DNA of 64,000 nucleotides, taken from NCBI RefSeq assembly GCF_020991085.1, contig NZ_CP087719.1, forward strand, positions 3,678,001 through 3,742,000, written 5' to 3'. This DNA is from Roseomonas sp. OT10 (GTDB taxonomy: Bacteria > Pseudomonadota > Alphaproteobacteria > Acetobacterales > Acetobacteraceae). The position numbers and the translations under genes were made by a program. The notes beneath the pieces are model-generated. The model saw only the letters and a list, made by a program, of their open reading frames with translations, made no database searches and was not told the origin of the DNA. This document shows, piece after piece, positions 11,596-60,686 of the stretch (positions are counted from its first letter, which is position 1; each line of letters begins with the position of its first letter).

Positions 11596-11598
<3 letters not shown>

Positions 11599-12036
11599 TA
11601 CGGACGGCGGGATGCACTGACATCTGCCGGCGCAGGGTGCGCCCGTGGCCCGGGGGCAAGGCTCTGCCTCGCCCCCGATACCCCCACTCCGCCAGGACCC
11701 TGCGGGCCCTGGACCCGAGAGGCGCTGCCGCGGGACAGCCGGATACGGGATCAAGGCGCCGAGGAGCTTGGCTCCTCGGCGGGTACGGTGTCCGCGCTCG
11801 CTGACGCTCTCTGAAGCTTTATTCAGAGTCCCGCCTGCCCGAGCTTCGTCAGGGTTCAGCCCAGAGGCTGATGCCTGCCACGTAGAGCCAACTCCCAACG
11901 GGGACCGGGGCCCGCTTGTGGCCCCGGCAGGGGTAGGGTCCGGGACGGGCATCGACGCACGGCGTCGATGCCGCAGGCCGGCGTCCCCTTCCGGTCCCAC
12001 GCCCGAACACCACACCCCAACGGGTCAGATCATCCC
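11596..12036 (+). repeat. Structured intergenic element, copy A (full length)
   Basis: Starts at the gyrB stop (TGATACGGACGG) and runs to GGGTCAGATCATCCC. The recognisable hairpins in order are: 11652–11676 (GGGGGCAAGGC paired with GCCTCGCCCCC); a CCAGGACCC…GGGCCCTGG pair near 11692; 11757–11781 (arms CGCCGAGGAGC and GCTCCTCGGCG, loop TTG); 11905–11927 (CCGGGGCC, loop CGCTTGT); and 11948–11972 (GGCATCGACG with CGTCGATGCC). Copy B at 26.25 kb has the same order in the same orientation; C (55.9 kb) and D (58.8 kb) are related and inverted. No protein signal was found. Confidence 0.85.
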
Positions 12037-12124
12037 GGTGTCCGTCTCAGCCTCGCCCGACACGGAGAGGCCCAGGTCGTTGGCCACTACCACCGTGCCC
12101 CTGGTGGCTCCGGCCGTCCACCCG

Positions 12125-13000
12125 TCATCCCCCGAGGTGCCGGCCGCCGGTTGCCTGCAAGTCGGCTCCGGTGATGAAGCTGCCCGCATCAGAACAGAGC
12201 AGCAGGGCTGCGCCTGCCATCTCCCGTGGCAGGCCGGCGCGTCCCATCGGCGAGGACTCGCTCTGTATGCGGGCCCAGGCCTCGGCGTCCTCGCGCCGCC
12301 AGCGGTTGCGCTCAGTGGCGACGAGGCCGGGGGACAGGTTGTTCACCGTCACGCCGAAGGGGGCGTAGTCGCGCGCCAGGTTCAGGGCGAGGTTGCACTG
12401 CGCGCTCTTCAGCGCGGCATAGACGGACAGCTCGGATTCCGGCCGGGTCTGGTTGATGCTGCCGATCGTCAGCACCCGCCCCCAGCCGCGCTCCCTCATC
12501 GGCGGCAGCGCCGCCTGCAGCAGTTCGATCGTGGCGCGGAAGTTGATCTGGATCTGCCGCTCGACCTGCTCCTCCGTCATGTCGAGGAAGGGGACGCGGT
12601 ACTGGATGGAGGCGCAGACCACGAGAATGTCCACCCCGCCGAGCGCCTCGCGGGCCGCCGCGACGCAGCCCGCCGCCTGGCCGGGCAGGGCGAAATCCGC
12701 CTCCACCGGCACGCAGCGGCGGCCGAGGCCGGCGATCTCCGCCGCCAGCTCCTCCGCCGCGGCGGGACGGCCGAAGCCGCGATCCGCCACGGCCGAGAAC
12801 TGGATGGCCACATCCGCCCCGGCCTCGGCCAGCACCAGCGCGATCTCCCGCCCGATGCTGACGCTGCCGCCGGTGACCAGCGCCCGGCGTCCCGCCAGCG
12901 AGAAGCGTTTGGCGATCCGCGCCGCCCCCGCCGGCAGGCCACCCGCCGGCCCCGCCGGCAGGCCACCCGCCGGCCCCGCCCCGTGCCGTTCTCCGCTCAT
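12125..13000 (-). CDS. SDR family NAD(P)-dependent oxidoreductase
   Basis: 291-aa classical short-chain dehydrogenase. The nucleotide-binding loop TGGSVSIG is at residues 43–50, and the catalytic residues are Ser181, Tyr194 and Lys198 (YAALK). The usual NNAG stretch is replaced by VCAS. The start at 13000 is supported by GGAGG at 10 nt. Residues 8–25 are a Gly/Pro/Ala leader encoded by a 24-bp tandem duplication, absent from normal SDRs. It is the last gene of the leftward operon from 17 kb (121 nt after the RraA-like gene) and probably oxidises or reduces a hydroxy/keto intermediate of that pathway. Confidence 0.9.
   Translation of the reverse strand: MSGERHGAGPAGGLPAGPAGGLPAGAARIAKRFSLAGRRALVTGGSVSIGREIALVLAEAGADVAIQFSAVADRGFGRPAAAEELAAEIAGLGRRCVPVEADFALPGQAAGCVAAAREALGGVDILVVCASIQYRVPFLDMTEEQVERQIQINFRATIELLQAALPPMRERGWGRVLTIGSINQTRPESELSVYAALKSAQCNLALNLARDYAPFGVTVNNLSPGLVATERNRWRREDAEAWARIQSESSPMGRAGLPREMAGAALLLCSDAGSFITGADLQATGGRHLGG
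12926..12973. repeat. 24-bp tandem duplication inside the SDR N-terminus
   Basis: Two adjacent identical 24-bp units (each beginning CCCCGCCGGCAGG) at 12926–12949 and 12950–12973, followed by a partial third (CCCCG). They encode a repeated 8-residue GPAGGLPA-type motif upstream of the Rossmann fold. Being a multiple of 3, it leaves the frame intact. Confidence 0.85.
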
Positions 13001-25431: not shown

Positions 25432-26253
25432 ATGGCGGAGCTTCCTGCCGCGCCCGCCGGCGCCATCCGGCTGGATGGCGCCACCCGGCTGCACGTCATC
25501 ATCGGCGACCCGATCGCCCAGGTGAAATCGCCCGACGGCGTCAGCCGGGCCCTCGCCGCACGCGGGCTGAACGCCGTTCTGGTGCCCATCCAAGTGCCGC
25601 CGGATGCGGTGGCGGGCTTCGTGCGCGGCGCCAGCCTGGCGCGGAACCTGGACGGCATCATCGTCACCGTGCCGCACAAGTTCGCCGCCGCGTCGCTCTG
25701 CGACACGCTCACCGACCGCGCCCGCTTCCTCGGCGCGGTGAACGTGATGCGGCGCAACCCCGATGGCGGCTGGCACGGCGACATGACGGATGGCGAGGGC
25801 CATGTCGCCAGCCTGCGCGCCGGGGGATGCGAACCCGCCGGGCGGCGCGCGCTGCTGGTCGGCTCCGGCGGCGCGGGCACGGCCATCGCGCTCGCGCTGC
25901 ACGAGGCGGGGGTGGCGGAGCTGGCGATCCACGATGCCGACGCGGCGCGGCGCGACCAGCTGATCGATCGCCTCGCCGGGCGCGGCGGCGCGCCGGTCGT
26001 GGCCGGCAGCGACGACCCGGCGGGCTATGAACTGGTGGTCAACGCCACCCCCGCCGGGATGCGCCCAGGCGACCCGCTGCCGGTGCGGACGGAGCGACTC
26101 TCGCCCGATGCCTTCGTCTCGGACGTCGTCACCGTGCCGGAGGTGACGCCGCTGCTCGCCGCCGCCCGCGCCCGCGGCTGCGGCACCCGCACGGGCACCG
26201 GCATGTTCGAGGCGGTGCGCGACCGGATGGTGGCGTTCCTGCTGGCGGATTGA
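25432..26253 (+). CDS. Shikimate dehydrogenase-like (AroE family) oxidoreductase, probably catabolic
   Basis: 273-aa AroE-fold enzyme. The catalytic Lys83 (TVPHK), Asn104 (GAVNV) and Asp120 (MTDGEG) are present, and the Rossmann loop LLVGSGGAGTA lies near 141–151. The substrate pocket differs: the usual SxSP pair that binds the shikimate carboxylate reads VKSP (Val31, Ser33). Biosynthetic AroE would keep both Ser, so quinate or another hydroaromatic acid is more likely. It is 28 nt after the SBP gene and shares its operon. A structured repeat element begins at its stop codon. Confidence 0.85.
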   Translation: MAELPAAPAGAIRLDGATRLHVIIGDPIAQVKSPDGVSRALAARGLNAVLVPIQVPPDAVAGFVRGASLARNLDGIIVTVPHKFAAASLCDTLTDRARFLGAVNVMRRNPDGGWHGDMTDGEGHVASLRAGGCEPAGRRALLVGSGGAGTAIALALHEAGVAELAIHDADAARRDQLIDRLAGRGGAPVVAGSDDPAGYELVVNATPAGMRPGDPLPVRTERLSPDAFVSDVVTVPEVTPLLAAARARGCGTRTGTGMFEAVRDRMVAFLLAD

Positions 26254-26628
26254 TACGCACGGCCCCCGTGGCCCGGGGGCAAGGCTCTGCCTCGCCCCCG
26301 TACCCCCACTCCGCCAGGACCCTGCGGGCCCTGGACCCGAGGAGTGCTACCGCGCGGATGACTGCGACGGGGTCACAGCGCCGAGGAGCCATGCTCCTCG
26401 GCGGGCACGGCCTCCATGCTCGCGGACGCCTTCTGAAGTTTTTCCAGAGTCCCGCCTGTCCACGCTCTGTCAGGGTTCAGCCCGGAGGCTGACTCCTACC
26501 GTGAAGAACCAACTCCCAGCGGGGACCGGGGCCCGCTTGTGGCCCCGGCAGGGGAGGGTCTGGGAGGGGACGGCGTCCCCTCCCGGTCCGACGCCCGAAC
26601 ACCACAGCACAACGGGTCAGATCATCCC
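26251..26628 (+). repeat. Structured intergenic element, copy B (full length)
   Basis: Starts at the stop codon of the AroE-like gene (TGATACGCACGG) and ends GGGTCAGATCATCCC, as copy A does. Blocks in the same order as A: GGGGGCAAGG…GCCTCGCCCCC near 26275; the CCAGGACCC/GGGCCCTGG pair; hairpin 26379–26403 (same arms as A, loop CAT); the CCGGGGCC hairpin with loop CGCTTGT near 26525; and terminal hairpin 26562–26584 (GGGAGGGGAC with GTCCCCTCCC). The terminal stem has a different sequence from A but stays fully paired. The remaining 75 nt to 26703 hold nothing recognisable. Confidence 0.85.
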
Positions 26629-26703
26629 ACCGTCAGTATGAGGCAGGGACGGTGCGGGCCGCGGCGGGGAACGGGGCAGCGTCACTGTCCGACGCCGCAG
26701 GGC

Positions 26704-54809: not shown

Positions 54810-55159
54810 GCAGCCAATCCGGTCTTGCGGGAGGATAGGGTCTGTCGGCGTCGTCACGTGGACCCGACACCGACAGCCAACCCGGCTCGTGATGCGTGAC
54901 GCCTGACCGTTCCGCGCTGCCATCGCCTCTGTCATGGCAACAGGATCGCCGGGCGGGCGGGTCGTGTCGATGAAACGGAATGATCAAAGATTCGGCGGGA
55001 GCAGCATGATCGTCCCAGCGCCGATCCCGTGATGCGAAAGCCATTGCCGGAGCGGTGGGAGAGCGTCGTGGCGCCGCGGCCCCCCCCGCGCCGTGGCCTG
55101 CGGCGAGAGGGAAAGTGGCTTGGCTGCTTTAGCATGCCTAACGGAAGGTGGTCCGATGG
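54810..55159. other. Gap between the small gene and the transposase remnant
   Basis: 350 nt. The right half (55020–55159) has no continuation of the transposase in any frame. The left part presumably contains the promoter of the 54809 operon. The sequence GGTCTGTCGGCG near 54839 only faintly resembles the possible IS end at 55864, so the IS boundary on this side cannot be placed. Confidence 0.35.
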
Positions 55160-55772
55160 GTTGGGCGTGCCGCCACGGGCGCGGATGACGGCTTCCGGCC
55201 GGCTCCCCGCATAGGCGCTGTCGCCGTAGGTGTCGCCAGGCGCTTCCGGCAGCATCCTCGCCAGTTCCGCCGCGTCATGGATGTTCGCGGTGGTGATCTC
55301 GATCCCGCGGATCAGACTGGCCTCCTGGTCGGTGGCGACATGGGCCTTGGTGCCATGGGTGGGCTTGCGCCGCCGATGGCCGGCCCAGCGCGCCTCCCGG
55401 TCGCAGCGGATGCTGGCCGAGGGCAGCAGCGTCGCATCGGCCAGCGTGCCGGTCCGTCCCACCAGCCCGTGGCGGCCGAGCTGGCGCGTGACCGCCTCGA
55501 ACAGCACGCGGTCCAGCTTGCGCTGCACCAGCGCGGCGCGAAACTGCACGCAGGCCGTGCGCTCGGGCACAGGCTCCTGCCGGGCAAACCCGCAGAACCG
55601 CCGGAAGCTCGCCCGGTCGTCGGGCACCTCCGCCAGGCGGACATCCGACAGGTCGTGCCAGGTCGCCAGCAGCGACGCGCGGAACAACGCCAGAGGTGGC
55701 CAGCCCGCCTCGCCCTTCGGCGAGGGACTGCCCAGGGACAGATGGCTCCTGCCCGATCTGCCGCCGCGCCAT
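55160..55772 (-). pseudogene. IS5-family transposase, broken
   Basis: Starts MARRQIGQEPSVPGQ at 55772, then loses about 30 residues and changes frame near 55720. The middle is well preserved: GWPPLALFRASLLATWHDLSD, RASFRRFCGFARQEPVPERT, LVGRTGTLADATLLPSAS, RRRKPTHGTKAHVATDQEA and TANIHDAAELARMLPEA, with the first DDE Asp (ADAT) and the second (GDSAY). The C-terminal third with the last Glu is missing after RARGGTP (about 55166). The element is therefore inactive. Its start side abuts a truncated copy of the structured intergenic element (55867). Confidence 0.85.
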
Positions 55773-55866
55773 CGATGCCTCCGTAGCCCTCGCAGCAACA
55801 GCGAATCAGCGCGATCCGCGTCGGATCAAGCGCATCCGCGTACAGATCTCATTACAGACAGCCGTA

Positions 55867-55996
55867 CGGCAGCGCCCATCGGGTCCAGGGCACGCAATGT
55901 TCTGGCCGGGTGGGGGTATCGGGGCGAGGCAGAGCCTTGCCCCCGGGCCACGGGCGCCAGTCCGCCAGGCATCGACGCATCATGCGGTACGTATCA
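55867..55996 (-). repeat. Structured intergenic element, copy C (5' part only)
   Basis: On the minus strand it begins TGATACGTACCGC at the stop codon of the enolase-family gene, then shares CCCGTGGCCCGGGGGCAAGG, CTCTGCCTCGCCCC, GATACCCCCAC and CCCTGGACCCGA with copies A and B. Similarity ends at GCTGCCG (55867), where sequence leading into the IS5-type transposase starts (CGGCTGTCTGTAATGAG). The IS therefore appears to have replaced the 3' two-thirds of this copy. Confidence 0.8.
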
Positions 55997-57176: not shown

Positions 57177-58754
57177 TCAGCCCCGCCGGATGCCCCAGAA
57201 GAGCGGCGCGCCCTTCACCAGCCCGGTGAGGTCGGAGCGCAGCGCCGTCGCCTGGGTGAAGAAGCCGGTGGGGTAGAAGGGCACCTCCTCGAAGGCCAGG
57301 GCCTGCATGTCGCGGCAGATGCGCTTCTGGGTGTCGAGGTCCGACGCCTCCAGCCAGGCGTTGCGCAGCGCCTCCATCCGGTCCGAGCCGAACCAGCCGA
57401 AGGTCGCGCTGCGCCCGCTGCCGCGGATATAGGCGTGGGCCGCCGGGCTGGCGACGCCCGCCCCCAGCGACCAGGTGCTGAACAGGCTCCAGCCGCCCTT
57501 GTCCAGCGGCTCCTGGCTGGCCAGGCGCTGCAGCGCCGTGCCCCAGTCCATCGCCTGGTAGTCGAGGTTGATGCCGGAGCGGCGCAGCGCGTCGCCCGCC
57601 ACCTCGCTCATCGCGTTGACCGTCTGGAAGTCGGTGGGCACGAGGAAGACGACGCGCTCGCCCTTGTAGCCCGCCGCCTGGAGGTCGCGCTTCACCGTGT
57701 CGAAATCCGCCCGCTTCGGCAGGGCGGAGAGGCCGACATCGCTCGCCATCGGGCTGCCGGGCAGGAAGAAGCCGACATTGTCCTTCCACAGCGCGCGGTT
57801 GTCGCCCACCACCGCCTGCATGAAGTCCGCCTGCACGAAGGCGCCGAGCAGCGCCTTGCGGATGGCCGGGTTGTCGAAGGGCGGGTGCAGGTGGTTCGGC
57901 CGCAGCAGGCTGAAGAAGCCGTAGCTCTCCACCAGGTCGACGCGCAGGGCGGCGTTGCGGCGCAGCAGCGGCAGCAGGTCGATCGCCGGCTGCTCCCACC
58001 AGTCCACCTCGCCCGATTGCAGCGCGGCGGCCGCCGTGCCCGCATCGGGGATGATGCGCCATTCCACCCGGTCGAAATGCGCCCTTCGCGGCCCGGCGAG
58101 GAAGCTCGCCTCGCCGCCCGGGCGCGGCGCGTAGTCGCGGAAGCGCTCGTACACCACTTGCGCCCCCGCCACCCGCTCGCCGGCCACGAAGCGGTAGGGG
58201 CCGCTGCCGATCATCTCCGGCACCGCGCGCGACGGGTCGGTCTGCGCCAGCCGCTCCGGCATCATGACGCAGATGTTGGAGTTGCTCTTGCCCAGCGCAT
58301 CCGCCAGCAGCGGGAAGGGCCGCTTCAGCCGGAAGACCAGCGTGCGGTCGTCCGGCGTCTCGATCTCGTCGGTGGCCGCCATCAGCGCCAGCCCGAAGGT
58401 GTCCCGCTTGCCCCAGCGCCGGACGGAGGCAGCGCAGTCCCGCGCCCGCACCGGCTCGCCATCGTGGAAACGGAGCCCCTCGCGCAGACGGATGGTCCAG
58501 CGCTTGCCGTCCTGGTCGATGGTGTGGCCCTCGGCCATCTGCGGCTGCGGCTGGAGATTCGCATCCACGCCGTAGAGCTGGTCGAAGACCATCAGCCCGT
58601 GGTTGCGCGTGATCGCGGCCGTGGTCTGCACCGGGTCCAGCAGCGCCAGGTCGCTCTGCGGCACGAAGCGCAGCACCGAGGCGCGTTGCGCCCCGGCGAT
58701 CCGGGGGGCCGCGAGCGTCGCGGCGGCGGAGGCGATGAGGGTGCGGCGGCGCAA
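57177..58754 (-). CDS. ABC transporter family-5 substrate-binding protein
   Basis: 525-aa SBP_bac_5 protein. The start is TTG at 58754 (read MRRRTLIASAAATLAAPRIAG), preceded by GAAGGAG at 8 nt. Mature motifs: VLRFVPQSDLALLDPVQTT, VFDQLYGVD, PQMAEGHTIDQDGKRWTIRL and PNHLHPPFDNPAIRKALLGA. It binds peptides or other solutes for an ABC importer whose other subunits are not in the window. It is a close tandem paralog of the 59112 gene, separated from it by structured element D, so a duplication is likely. Confidence 0.93.
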   Translation of the reverse strand: MRRRTLIASAAATLAAPRIAGAQRASVLRFVPQSDLALLDPVQTTAAITRNHGLMVFDQLYGVDANLQPQPQMAEGHTIDQDGKRWTIRLREGLRFHDGEPVRARDCAASVRRWGKRDTFGLALMAATDEIETPDDRTLVFRLKRPFPLLADALGKSNSNICVMMPERLAQTDPSRAVPEMIGSGPYRFVAGERVAGAQVVYERFRDYAPRPGGEASFLAGPRRAHFDRVEWRIIPDAGTAAAALQSGEVDWWEQPAIDLLPLLRRNAALRVDLVESYGFFSLLRPNHLHPPFDNPAIRKALLGAFVQADFMQAVVGDNRALWKDNVGFFLPGSPMASDVGLSALPKRADFDTVKRDLQAAGYKGERVVFLVPTDFQTVNAMSEVAGDALRRSGINLDYQAMDWGTALQRLASQEPLDKGGWSLFSTWSLGAGVASPAAHAYIRGSGRSATFGWFGSDRMEALRNAWLEASDLDTQKRICRDMQALAFEEVPFYPTGFFTQATALRSDLTGLVKGAPLFWGIRRG

Positions 58755-58802
58755 GGCGGGGGCTCCTTCGGGTTGAGGGTCAGGGGAGTTCGGGCGGCGC
58801 GC

Positions 58803-59111
58803 TCCAGGGGGCGCTGCCCCCTGGACCCCCGCCGGGGCCACAAGCTGGCCCCGGACCCCGCTGGGCCTTGTCGCCCGCGGCTTTGGTCGGCCTGCGGGCT
58901 GCACCCGGGGAGAGCGCGGACGGGCGGGGCGCTGGAAAAACAGCGTCAGGGTCGCGCGCGCTGCGGCCGCAGTCGCCGAGGAGCGAGGCTCCTCGGCGCG
59001 ATCCCGATGCAGCGCGCGGACTCGAAGGGCCCAGGGCCCTCTGGGTCCTGGCGGATAGGGGGTACGGGGGAAAGGCGGCGCCTTTCCCCCGGGGGGTGGC
59101 ACCGCGCGGCC
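58803..59111 (-). repeat. Structured intergenic element, copy D (full but diverged)
   Basis: Fills the gap after the SBP stop at 59112, read on the minus strand. Hairpins in the order of copies A and B: 59066–59090 (GGGGGAAAGGC with GCCTTTCCCCC, fully paired); the CCAGGACCC/GGGCCCTGGGCCC region; 58974–58998 (arms CGCCGAGGAGC and GCTCCTCGGCG, same as A and B, loop CTC on this strand); CCGGGGCC with loop AGCTTGT near 58840; terminal hairpin 58803–58825 (TCCAGGGGGC with GCCCCCTGGA). The spacers differ from A and B much more than the stems do. Confidence 0.78.
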
Positions 59112-60686
59112 TCACCCCCGCCGCACCCCGGTGAAGAGCGGCGCGCCCTGCATCATGCCGGCGAGGTCGGCGCGATAGGCGGTGGGCTGGGTATAGGCGC
59201 CGAGCGGCCAGTAGGGCACGTCGCGGAAGGCCTGGAGCTGGATGTCGCGTCCGATCGCCTGCTGTGCCGCGAGGTCGGGCGCGTCGAACCAGGCGTTGCG
59301 CAGCTCCTCGATGCGCGGGCTGTCGAACCAGCCGAAGGTGGCGCTGCGGCCGCTGCCGCGCAGGTGGTTGTGGGCGGCGGGGTTGGCCGCGCCCACGCCG
59401 AGGGTGGTGTTGCAGAAGGCGCTCCAGCCGCCCTTGTCCAGCGGCTCCTGGCTGGCCAGGCGTTGCAGCACCGTGCCCCAGTCCAGCGCCTGGTAGTCGA
59501 GGTTGATGCCAACCCGGCGCAGCACGTCGCCGACTACCTCGCTCAGCGCGTTCAGCACGGGCAGGTCGGTGGGGACCAACAGGACGACGCGCTCGCCGCG
59601 ATAGCCGGCGGCCTGGAGGTCGCGCCTGACCTTCTCCAGGTCCGGCTTCTCCGGCAGCGCCTCCAGCCCGGCCTCGCTGGCCATGGGGCTGCCGGGGGTG
59701 AAGAAGCCCACGCGGTCGCGCCACAGGCTGCGGTCGCTGCCCGCCACAGCCTGCATCGCCTCCGCCTGGGAGAAGGCGCCGAGCAGGGCGCGGCGGATGG
59801 CGGGGTTGTCGAAGGGCGGGTTGAGGTGGTTGGGCTTGAGCATGGCGAGCTGCCCGGCCGTGTCCAGCACCTCCACCTTGATGCCGCGGGCGCGGCGCAG
59901 GACGGGGAGGAGGTCCGGGATCGGCTGCTCCCACCAGTCCACCTCGCCGGATTGCAGCGCCGCGGCGGCGGTCGCGGCATCGGGCAGGGTGCGCCATTCC
60001 ACCCGGTCGAAGTTCGCGACGCGCGGCCCGGCGAGCAGGCTGGCCGTGCCCTCCGCGCGCGGCACGTAGTCGCGGAAGCGCTCGTAGACGGCCAGCGCGC
60101 CGGGCACGCGCTCCCCGGCGACGAAGCGGTAGGGGCCGCTGCCCACCACCTCCGGCACCGGGCGCATGGCGTCGAGCCGCGCCAGCCGCTCCGGCATCAT
60201 GGCGGCGAGGTTGGGCCCGGCCTTGGCCAGCGCGTCGGGCAGCATCGGGAAGGGACGCTTCAGCCGGATCTCGATGGTGCGGTCGTCCGGCGCACCGATG
60301 CTGTCCGTCACCGCCATCAGCGCCAGGCCGAAATTGTCCCGCTTGCCCCAGCGCTCGATCGAGGCGGCGCAGTCGCGCGCGAGGACGGGCGTGCCGTCAT
60401 GGAACCTCAGACCCTCGCGCAGGCGGATGCGCCAGAGGCGGCCATCCTCCGACACGGTGTGGCCCTCGGCCATCTGCGGCCGCGCGACCTGTTGCAGGTC
60501 CGCGCCGTAGAGCGTGTCGAAGACCAGCATGCCGTGGTTGCGCGTGACGAGGCCCGTGGTCTGCACCGGGTCGAGCAGCGCGAGATCCGCCTGCGGCACG
60601 AAGCGCAGCACGCGCGGCGCCTGCGCCTTGGCCAGGCGCGGTGCCGCGAGGAGCGCGGAGGAGGCGAGCAGGGTGCGGCGGCGCAT
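59112..60686 (-). CDS. ABC transporter family-5 substrate-binding protein
   Basis: 524-aa SBP_bac_5 protein. The signal peptide is MRRRTLLASSALLAAPRLAKA. Mature motifs: VLRFVPQADLALLDPVQTTG, VFDTLYGAD, PQMAEGHTVSEDG, SGEVDWWEQPIPDLLPVL and PNHLNPPFDNPAIRRALLGA. It is nearly the same length as the paralog at 57177 and similar along all of it, so the pair arose by tandem duplication. It follows the IlvD/Edd gene by 30 nt and is probably the binding protein for the operon's substrate. No permease or ATPase genes are in the window. Confidence 0.94.
   Translation of the reverse strand: MRRRTLLASSALLAAPRLAKAQAPRVLRFVPQADLALLDPVQTTGLVTRNHGMLVFDTLYGADLQQVARPQMAEGHTVSEDGRLWRIRLREGLRFHDGTPVLARDCAASIERWGKRDNFGLALMAVTDSIGAPDDRTIEIRLKRPFPMLPDALAKAGPNLAAMMPERLARLDAMRPVPEVVGSGPYRFVAGERVPGALAVYERFRDYVPRAEGTASLLAGPRVANFDRVEWRTLPDAATAAAALQSGEVDWWEQPIPDLLPVLRRARGIKVEVLDTAGQLAMLKPNHLNPPFDNPAIRRALLGAFSQAEAMQAVAGSDRSLWRDRVGFFTPGSPMASEAGLEALPEKPDLEKVRRDLQAAGYRGERVVLLVPTDLPVLNALSEVVGDVLRRVGINLDYQALDWGTVLQRLASQEPLDKGGWSAFCNTTLGVGAANPAAHNHLRGSGRSATFGWFDSPRIEELRNAWFDAPDLAAQQAIGRDIQLQAFRDVPYWPLGAYTQPTAYRADLAGMMQGAPLFTGVRRG

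Follow-up and report, generated by a model that had tools for sequence, protein, structure and literature searches.

The window, a stretch of 64,000 nucleotides from Roseomonas sp. OT10, carries four copies of a multi-hairpin element, which occurs in many further copies in the same genome (G000; 5.69 Mb, 3 contigs), was mobile in the past and is confined to gaps at gene ends. Constraint on its hairpins after insertion is strongly supported. Our leading interpretation, which we hold tentatively and with somewhat less than even confidence, is that a MITE-like element spread and that its hairpins became gene-end structures serving both strands, probably as two-way terminators.

Copy A, a complete element located 3' of gyrB (11596..12049, plus strand), begins with a 5' terminal inverted repeat (TIR; 11596..11614), whose TGA at 11596-11598 is the gyrB stop codon, followed by the G-rich hairpin HP1 (11649..11677), HP2 with the arms CCAGGACCC and GGGCCCTGG (11692..11712), HP3 with CGCCGAGGAGC arms and a variable 3-nt loop (11757..11781), HP4 with the arms CCGGGGCC and GGCCCCGG (11905..11927), a terminal hairpin with the arms GGCATCGACG and CGTCGATGCC (11948..11972), and the 3' TIR (12031..12049), all on the plus strand. 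The terminal hairpin, which was assigned by eye and whose stem is there in the fold, is unlike the usual HP5. Since the outer triplets of copy A are TGA and TCA, its duplication was not kept. Copy B (26251..26641, plus strand), from which the 5' subterminal part is absent, has an intact duplication, i.e. TGA at 26251-26253, which is the stop codon of an aroE-like gene, and TGA at 26639-26641; it contains HP1 (26272..26300), HP2 (26314..26334), HP3 (26379..26403), HP4 (26526..26548), HP5 (26562..26584) and the 3' TIR (26623..26641) on the same strand. Copy C is truncated (55867..55996, minus strand) and runs down from 55996 through the 5' TIR (55978-55996), which sits on the stop codon of a 392-aa gene, HP1 (55920-55947) and a changed HP2 (55885-55905), where it was probably cut by an insertion or deletion. 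A transposase-like ORF (54932-55798, minus strand) with a partial DDE_Tnp_1 match (G000:C1:3733205-3733456) adjoins the broken end. That this truncated copy has an altered HP2 is as expected, but it is one case. Copy D (about 59114-58793, minus strand) is divergent: it begins on a stop codon and has all hairpins, including HP3 (58974..58998, with arms identical to those of the family), HP4 (58832..58854) and a different HP5, and it has no TIRs. It lies between two similar genes in tandem (57177-60686, minus strand), which by eye resemble genes for ABC-transporter substrate-binding proteins.

Reading all four places confirmed the hairpin blocks that the earlier note had described there; the places stood, and the ends of A, B and D had to be corrected to those given above, while it had been missed how many copies there are and that they carry TIRs, a 3-bp duplication and ends that coincide with stop codons. 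That A, B and D are related, and not chance GC-rich sequence, follows from the comparison of copy D with the consensus (0.76 identity over 310 bases around HP3, with exact HP3 and HP4 arms) and from the scores of a model of HP1-HP2 (R1, 77 positions), which were 88.7 bits for A, 88.5 for B, 85.4 for D and 66.3 for C. The absence of a protein signal was upheld as well: each frame of the core is interrupted in all but 41 of 90 copies at most, and the substitutions lack codon periodicity, so that protein coding was rejected.

Further copies, the absence of which would have refuted the earlier note, are numerous: when 2 mismatches were allowed, the HP4 pattern matched the genome 227 times (111 + 116; reversed control 0), and copy A as a DNA query found at least 39 further places with 81-89% identity among the best 40 of 371 candidates scored. 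Among the matches listed, all family places are on contig C1; as a separate observation, no perfect HP4 match in this set lies before position 214,699 of that contig (1-214000), at an average spacing of about 23 kb. We read 132 distinct copies, accepted only if HP4 was present with no more than 4 mismatches; copies in a more advanced state of decay are therefore under-sampled. Both TIRs were recognizable at 12/17 or better in 90 of them (49 from the HP4 pattern, 22 from a TIR search, 19 from DNA similarity), and the 42 that lacked two clear TIRs were left out of the alignment. The two-TIR copies have a median length of 423 bp (range 388-482). Their TIR is TSATACSGACGGCGGGATG, inverted at both ends, and the element ends are TACSGACGGCGGGATG, with a 3-bp TNA duplication. 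The outer triplets are identical in 60 of the 90 copies, compared with a mean of 32.0 and a maximum of 48 in 10,000 shuffles; read on the top strand, TGA/TGA occurs 26 times, TCA/TCA 34 times, TGA followed by TCA four times and TCA followed by TGA never, and the base outside the triplet is C on the left in 54/90 and G on the right in 62/90. The ends thus carry a 3-bp TSA target duplication, and from this together with both TIRs we conclude that the element spread in a MITE-like manner; it shares with MITEs the TIRs, the target-site duplication and a short, non-coding sequence. At 123 of 124 TIR places at least one hairpin lies inward, the exception being L218. One hybrid copy (L219, 1001-1500) consists of a TIR, HP1 and a loop-enlarged HP2 followed by other sequence.

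The earlier note had proposed a non-autonomous mobile element or, alternatively, a structured 3' UTR or ncRNA family. The TIRs and the target duplication support the first, the position at gene ends, the conservation of the hairpins after insertion and the covariation described below back a structured gene-end element, and the evidence favours both simultaneously. An autonomous parent was not found among five multi-copy IS groups, which have other ends (18 of 30 DDE_Tnp_1 loci compared), nor in 200 family genomes, where three single TIR hits outside the genome of the window had no partner end within 3 kb at up to 4 mismatches. We therefore call the element MITE-like, as the parent could be extinct or lie outside the sequence searched. 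One resident DDE_Tnp_1 insertion sequence, present in 12 equal-scoring copies (L248-L259; 3 on C1, 9 on C2), was also observed. The resident DDE_Tnp_1 insertion sequence is IS1031-like and shows TGA, TCA or TAA (TNA) duplications in 6/6 copies compared by eye. The 3-bp TNA-type duplication of the element would fit a mobilising enzyme of the IS5/IS1031 type.

Gene context was assessed with a custom codon model, for which the window served as training sequence, instead of an annotation. According to these gene calls, the flanking genes are convergent in 101 of the 132 copies, tandem in 29 and divergent in one, with one undecided (55, 18, 0 and 3, respectively, in the first 76 copies). The element sits in gene-end gaps, mostly convergent ones. 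By their triplets, 43 copies are TGA-type, 40 TCA-type and 7 of 90 neither; the triplet is located exactly on the stop codon of the left gene in 35/43 TGA-type copies and on that of the right gene in 32/40 TCA-type copies, and the element often sits exactly on a TGA stop codon, which the duplication restores. Special targeting of stop codons was considered and dropped, since 52 of 66 copies at a stop compare with 48.1 (sd 2.8) expected from a random choice of TSA, and with 51.8 if the C/G flanks are weighted (convergent two-TIR copies; 2 skipped). Removal of the element leaves gaps with a median length of 89 bp, in which the stop codons account for most of the TSA triplets; the overlap with stop codons agrees with the prediction from TSA targeting of short gaps. 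Downstream of gyrB, none of 14/14 congeners has a hairpin pattern in the orthologous region (1500 bases in 13, 526 in one); the flanks there are diverged and a base-exact empty junction is absent, and the three nearest congeners (gyrB protein 87% identical) have, by eye, a U-run hairpin at this site instead. A second empty site at aroE was discarded, the homologues (59%, 58%) being too distant and not clearly orthologous.

A target duplication is exact at insertion and hence an independent clock. The spare duplication provides such a clock inside each insertion, and the conservation of every block after insertion thereby becomes measurable, as in a natural experiment. Two-TIR copies are identical to each other at a median of 0.852 and a maximum of 0.915 (1,500 sampled pairs). 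Across the 90 copies, the duplication has decayed by 12.6% per site (60/90 still exact), and divergence from the consensus is 13.9% in the linkers and 14.7% in the TIRs, compared with 3/1980 changed bases in the HP3 arms (0.15%), 21/2424 in HP2 (0.87%), 1.3% in the unpaired HP1-HP2 spacer, 2.2% in HP1 and 2.9% in HP5; the value for HP4, 0.29%, is biased because HP4 was a selection criterion. In the 22 copies found by the TIR search only, 0/484 bases of the HP3 arms are changed and the linkers differ by 13.6%. Among 30 loci detected through the TIR alone, none of the four hairpins needs more than 5 edits in 29, and one is without HP4. Rare variants (≤2 copies), which most likely arose after insertion, amount to 0.21% in HP2 and 0.29% in HP3 versus 1.4-1.7% in the TIRs. 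These data strongly support that the hairpin arms have remained almost as they were at insertion, whereas decay has reached about 10-15% per base in the linkers, the TIRs and the spare duplication.

Such uneven decay bears on the reading that the element is a purely selfish MITE, the hairpins of which would be needed by the transposition machinery and would have no use for the host. The TIRs, the target duplication, the high copy number and the essential confinement of the TIR to the window's genome among 200 family genomes are in line with it, as is the fact that our sample consists of HP4-bearing copies, and the host function is one that we infer. We nevertheless regard it as decidedly unlikely, since an element of this kind should decay evenly, which the contrast between the arms and all other parts contradicts, since nearly all TIR-found loci keep their four hairpins, since the TIR-less copy D retains exact HP3 and HP4 arms, and since the hairpins persist in sister genomes, where the TIR barely exceeds background. 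Even less probable, in our view, is a mutational process, such as template switching or gene conversion, that would keep the arms identical in the absence of selection. HP3 arms that are uniform within a genome and show fixed differences between clades would suit such a process, as would the occurrence of some HP3 loops as reverse complements, as if hairpins formed and flipped. But conversion would be expected to even out the linkers between the frozen hairpins as well, and these have diverged by 12-15%; template switching would leave the arms complementary and allow the pair to drift, yet just 3 both-sided changes were found in HP1-HP4 of 90 copies, and the unpaired HP1-HP2 spacer is frozen as well. 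The loop triplets themselves are CAT in 72 and ATG in 17 cases in the window's genome, and ATG 10 / CAT 7 and CAG 6 / CTG 4 in R. mucosa; TTG, found 19 times in the window's genome without any CAA, speaks against flipping.

Covariation was examined in an HP1-HP2 alignment of four genomes (G000, G003, G006, i.e. Roseomonas mucosa ATCC BAA-692, and G011), for which 35 of 204 rows were chosen, 33 of them distinct. With 90.7% of the cells paired, both-sided changes affect 38 cells versus 12.6 (sd 3.0) in shuffled alignments and 6 pairs versus 3.7; the number of pair types (10 vs 9.3) is not above that of the shuffles, and one-sided standard pairs, hence G-U, are absent from all 686 cells. In R. 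mucosa, where the search pattern for HP2 had left two facing positions free, this pair is Watson-Crick in 56/56 cases (29 C-G, 15 G-C, 12 A-T) with no G-T, and the same pair in the window's genome is C-G in 115, A-T in one and mismatched in one of 117 cases. HP5 is looser in the window's genome, with 24 G-U and 34 broken pairs in 990 cells. The HP3 arms have undergone a lineage-wide paired switch: all 118/118 perfect-arm hairpins of the window's genome have CGCCGAGGAGC, and 45/48 elsewhere have CGCCGGAGAGC (37/40 in G006, 5/5 in G003, 3/3 in G011), a difference also seen at one apparently orthologous locus (L005/L093). This lock-step change counts against our leading interpretation, because selection for structure alone predicts none. 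Copies in sister genomes that look orthologous (L091/L149 and L005/L093, too few for counts) have kept their hairpins; L103 and L135 occupy the same place, but L135 is without HP3, and L119 breaks off inside HP2.

A changing recogniser would produce such a clade-wise lock-step change, as expected if the element were a site at the DNA level, i.e. cruciforms or a sequence to which DNA gyrase, a factor that organises the chromosome or another specific protein binds, where positive supercoils collect between convergent genes. This reading, which we consider rather unlikely, also agrees with the lack of G-U pairs in the compared HP1-HP2 stems, with the frozen unpaired spacer (1.3%), with the use of both orientations at convergent positions and with the precedent of REPs, for which the consulted part of PMC3733652 describes a preference for convergent and tandem gaps. 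The one-sided changes in HP5 do not fit, and the binding protein is hypothetical.

A trans-acting family of non-coding RNAs transcribed from the elements is very improbable. Folding is strong, being 5.7 sd better than shuffles for copy A and 5.8 sd for copy D (z -5.7 and -5.8), and one promoter-like match on the minus strand lies over the 5' end of copy A, with 0.0 found in shuffles. Against this stand the large number of copies, their location in gene-end gaps, the occurrence of both orientations, the lack of G-U in the compared stems and the lack of an Rfam match at threshold. An RNA acting on one strand only is likewise not supported, as both orientations occur and no G-U pair is present in the compared HP1-HP2 stems, and the stem changes are too sparse for a strand-specific RNA to be read from them (C>T 9 vs G>A 20), with the plus strand not indicated.

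The layout of the element itself is two-sided. In the R. mucosa consensus (55 copies), the 3' part is HP1-HP2 inverted at the level of sequence (score 72; maximum of 2,000 shuffles 36), so that the halves HP1-HP2 and HP5-HP4 mirror each other, and some elements of congeners carry HP1 and HP2 in both orientations. In the window's genome, the halves mirror each other in the order and kind of the hairpins alone, HP4-HP5 reaching a score of 20 against inverted HP1-HP2 (shuffled mean 18.9; 745/2,000 as high). Consequently, our leading interpretation is lowered and three rivals are raised slightly. R1 matches HP4-HP5 on the opposite strand in many of 99 sources, with 22-39 bits, a range close to the 30 bits reached by antisense matches to HP1 itself; examples are 26522-26598 (minus strand, 31.7 bits) in copy B and 58793-58858 (plus strand, 26.6 bits) in copy D.

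R1 matched in 29/110 Acetobacteraceae genomes (27/102 genera), with at least 30 matches in G000, G011, G046, G072 and G085 (scoring covered no more than 43 per genome), and among 142 genomes of the class G000 alone matched; when 3 mismatches are allowed, the HP2 motif occurs in 19/397 family genomes (control 0). The TIR at ≤1 mismatch gave 79 hits in the window's genome and single hits in three others of 200 family genomes, and at ≤3 mismatches 22, 18 and 31 hits in three sister genomes versus 11, 7 and 11 for the reversed control. With the TIR nearly confined to one genome and R1 present in many genera, we conclude that the mobile wrapping is lineage-specific and the module older. In other genera, 20 stretches of which were inspected by eye, the module is often one of several hairpins that follow shortly on a stop codon and are joined by different linkers. 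Two genomes from other genera of the family (G235 and G041; L308-L318) have their own multi-hairpin stretches at gene ends, in which long inverted repeats such as CTGAAAGTTTGGGGAAGGGGC...GCCCCTTCCCCAAACTTTCAG occupy the centre.

In the interpretation that we prefer, a non-autonomous MITE-like element of about 420 bases would have spread, mostly into short convergent gene-end gaps, and its hairpins would have proved useful to the host where they landed, each half acting on the transcript or the polymerase that arrives from its own side; the element would then be a two-way transcription terminator or 3'-end block. We place such a two-way function first because of the position, the two-sided layout and the absence of G-U, and a DNA-level site second. 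The hairpins are without a U-run: the intrinsic-terminator test was positive at 6/192 convergent 3' ends with an element and 0/18 without, and at 1/13 tandem ends with and 3/76 without; inside copy A no U-run terminator was matched, and two matches are nearby, at 12199-12219. U-run terminators looked rare in this genome by the simple test used; we do not take their scarcity as proof that the element terminates transcription, as the test does not discriminate. Since the U-run test is unsupportive, termination would have to rely on the stable hairpins, on Rho or on another factor, or else the element would function as DNA. A broader picture, possible but speculative, is that Acetobacteraceae carry portable two-way double-hairpin gene-end modules, spread by a MITE at least once and held by selection, which would be recognised by a dedicated host factor, either in the DNA or in RNA of both strands; this would account for the lock-step change within each lineage and would amount to a system for U-run-free termination or for the relief of supercoils. 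If the terminator reading is true, a G+C-rich bacterium owes the gene ends at very many of its loci to a mobile element.

The earlier note knew of no described family with this layout, and the family adds to Rfam, for which no match in the window reached the gathering threshold; the sub-threshold matches to CRISPR-DR20 (twice), MIR531 and sno_ZL63 were attributed to chance (best E 0.21, at copy A). A literature search, which included few subscription journals, found no published account of such an element in Roseomonas or Acetobacteraceae. In its general MITE features the element can be likened to MITEAba12, reportedly a bacterial MITE. The MIRU of mycobacteria are short repeats that spread into TGA-containing sites at gene ends, within co-directional operons, and going by this general description the element resembles them in being a repeat at gene ends and TGA-containing sites. 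Bacterial MITEs such as Correia/NEMIS and RUP are, in the parts of PMC10969869 and PMC2229807 consulted, short, non-coding, multi-copy and intergenic, with TIRs and a target duplication, all of which applies to our element; unlike them, it has hairpins that are far better conserved than its ends, is G+C-rich and is built of double-hairpin modules, and a parent insertion sequence with the same ends was not found. The IS1031 subgroup of the IS5 family inserts at TNA with a 3-bp repeat (consulted part of PMC12016507), as the element does with its TNA duplication (TGA/TGA or TCA/TCA, 60/90 copies), but its ends differ from those of the resident IS1031-like insertion sequence (GAGCCTGATCCG against TACSGACGG), and its membership is that of a candidate. 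Bidirectional intrinsic terminators, as far as the consulted parts of PMC5381666 and PMC7566282 go, are located between convergent genes and show extra conservation, both of which the element shares; the commonest intermediate in terminators of B. cereus is G-U (same part of PMC5381666), whereas the element has no U-run and no G-U in the compared HP1-HP2 stems. According to the consulted part of PMC3733652, REPs measure 20-40 bp, carry a GTAG or CGTC tag and frequent G-T stem pairs, and are found preferentially in convergent and tandem gaps; a stop codon can be provided by the termini of GTAG-REPs, and CGTC repeats are reported missing from Acetobacteraceae. On this partial account, the element resembles REPs and BIMEs in its palindromic units, often in opposite orientation, and in its convergent and tandem gaps; unlike them, it is about 420 bp long with TIRs and a duplication, and neither tag was seen by eye at the consensus ends. 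Set apart from REPs by its size and its ends, and from MITEs by the lack of a recognized parent, the element is MITE-like in its behaviour and REP/BIME-like in its position.
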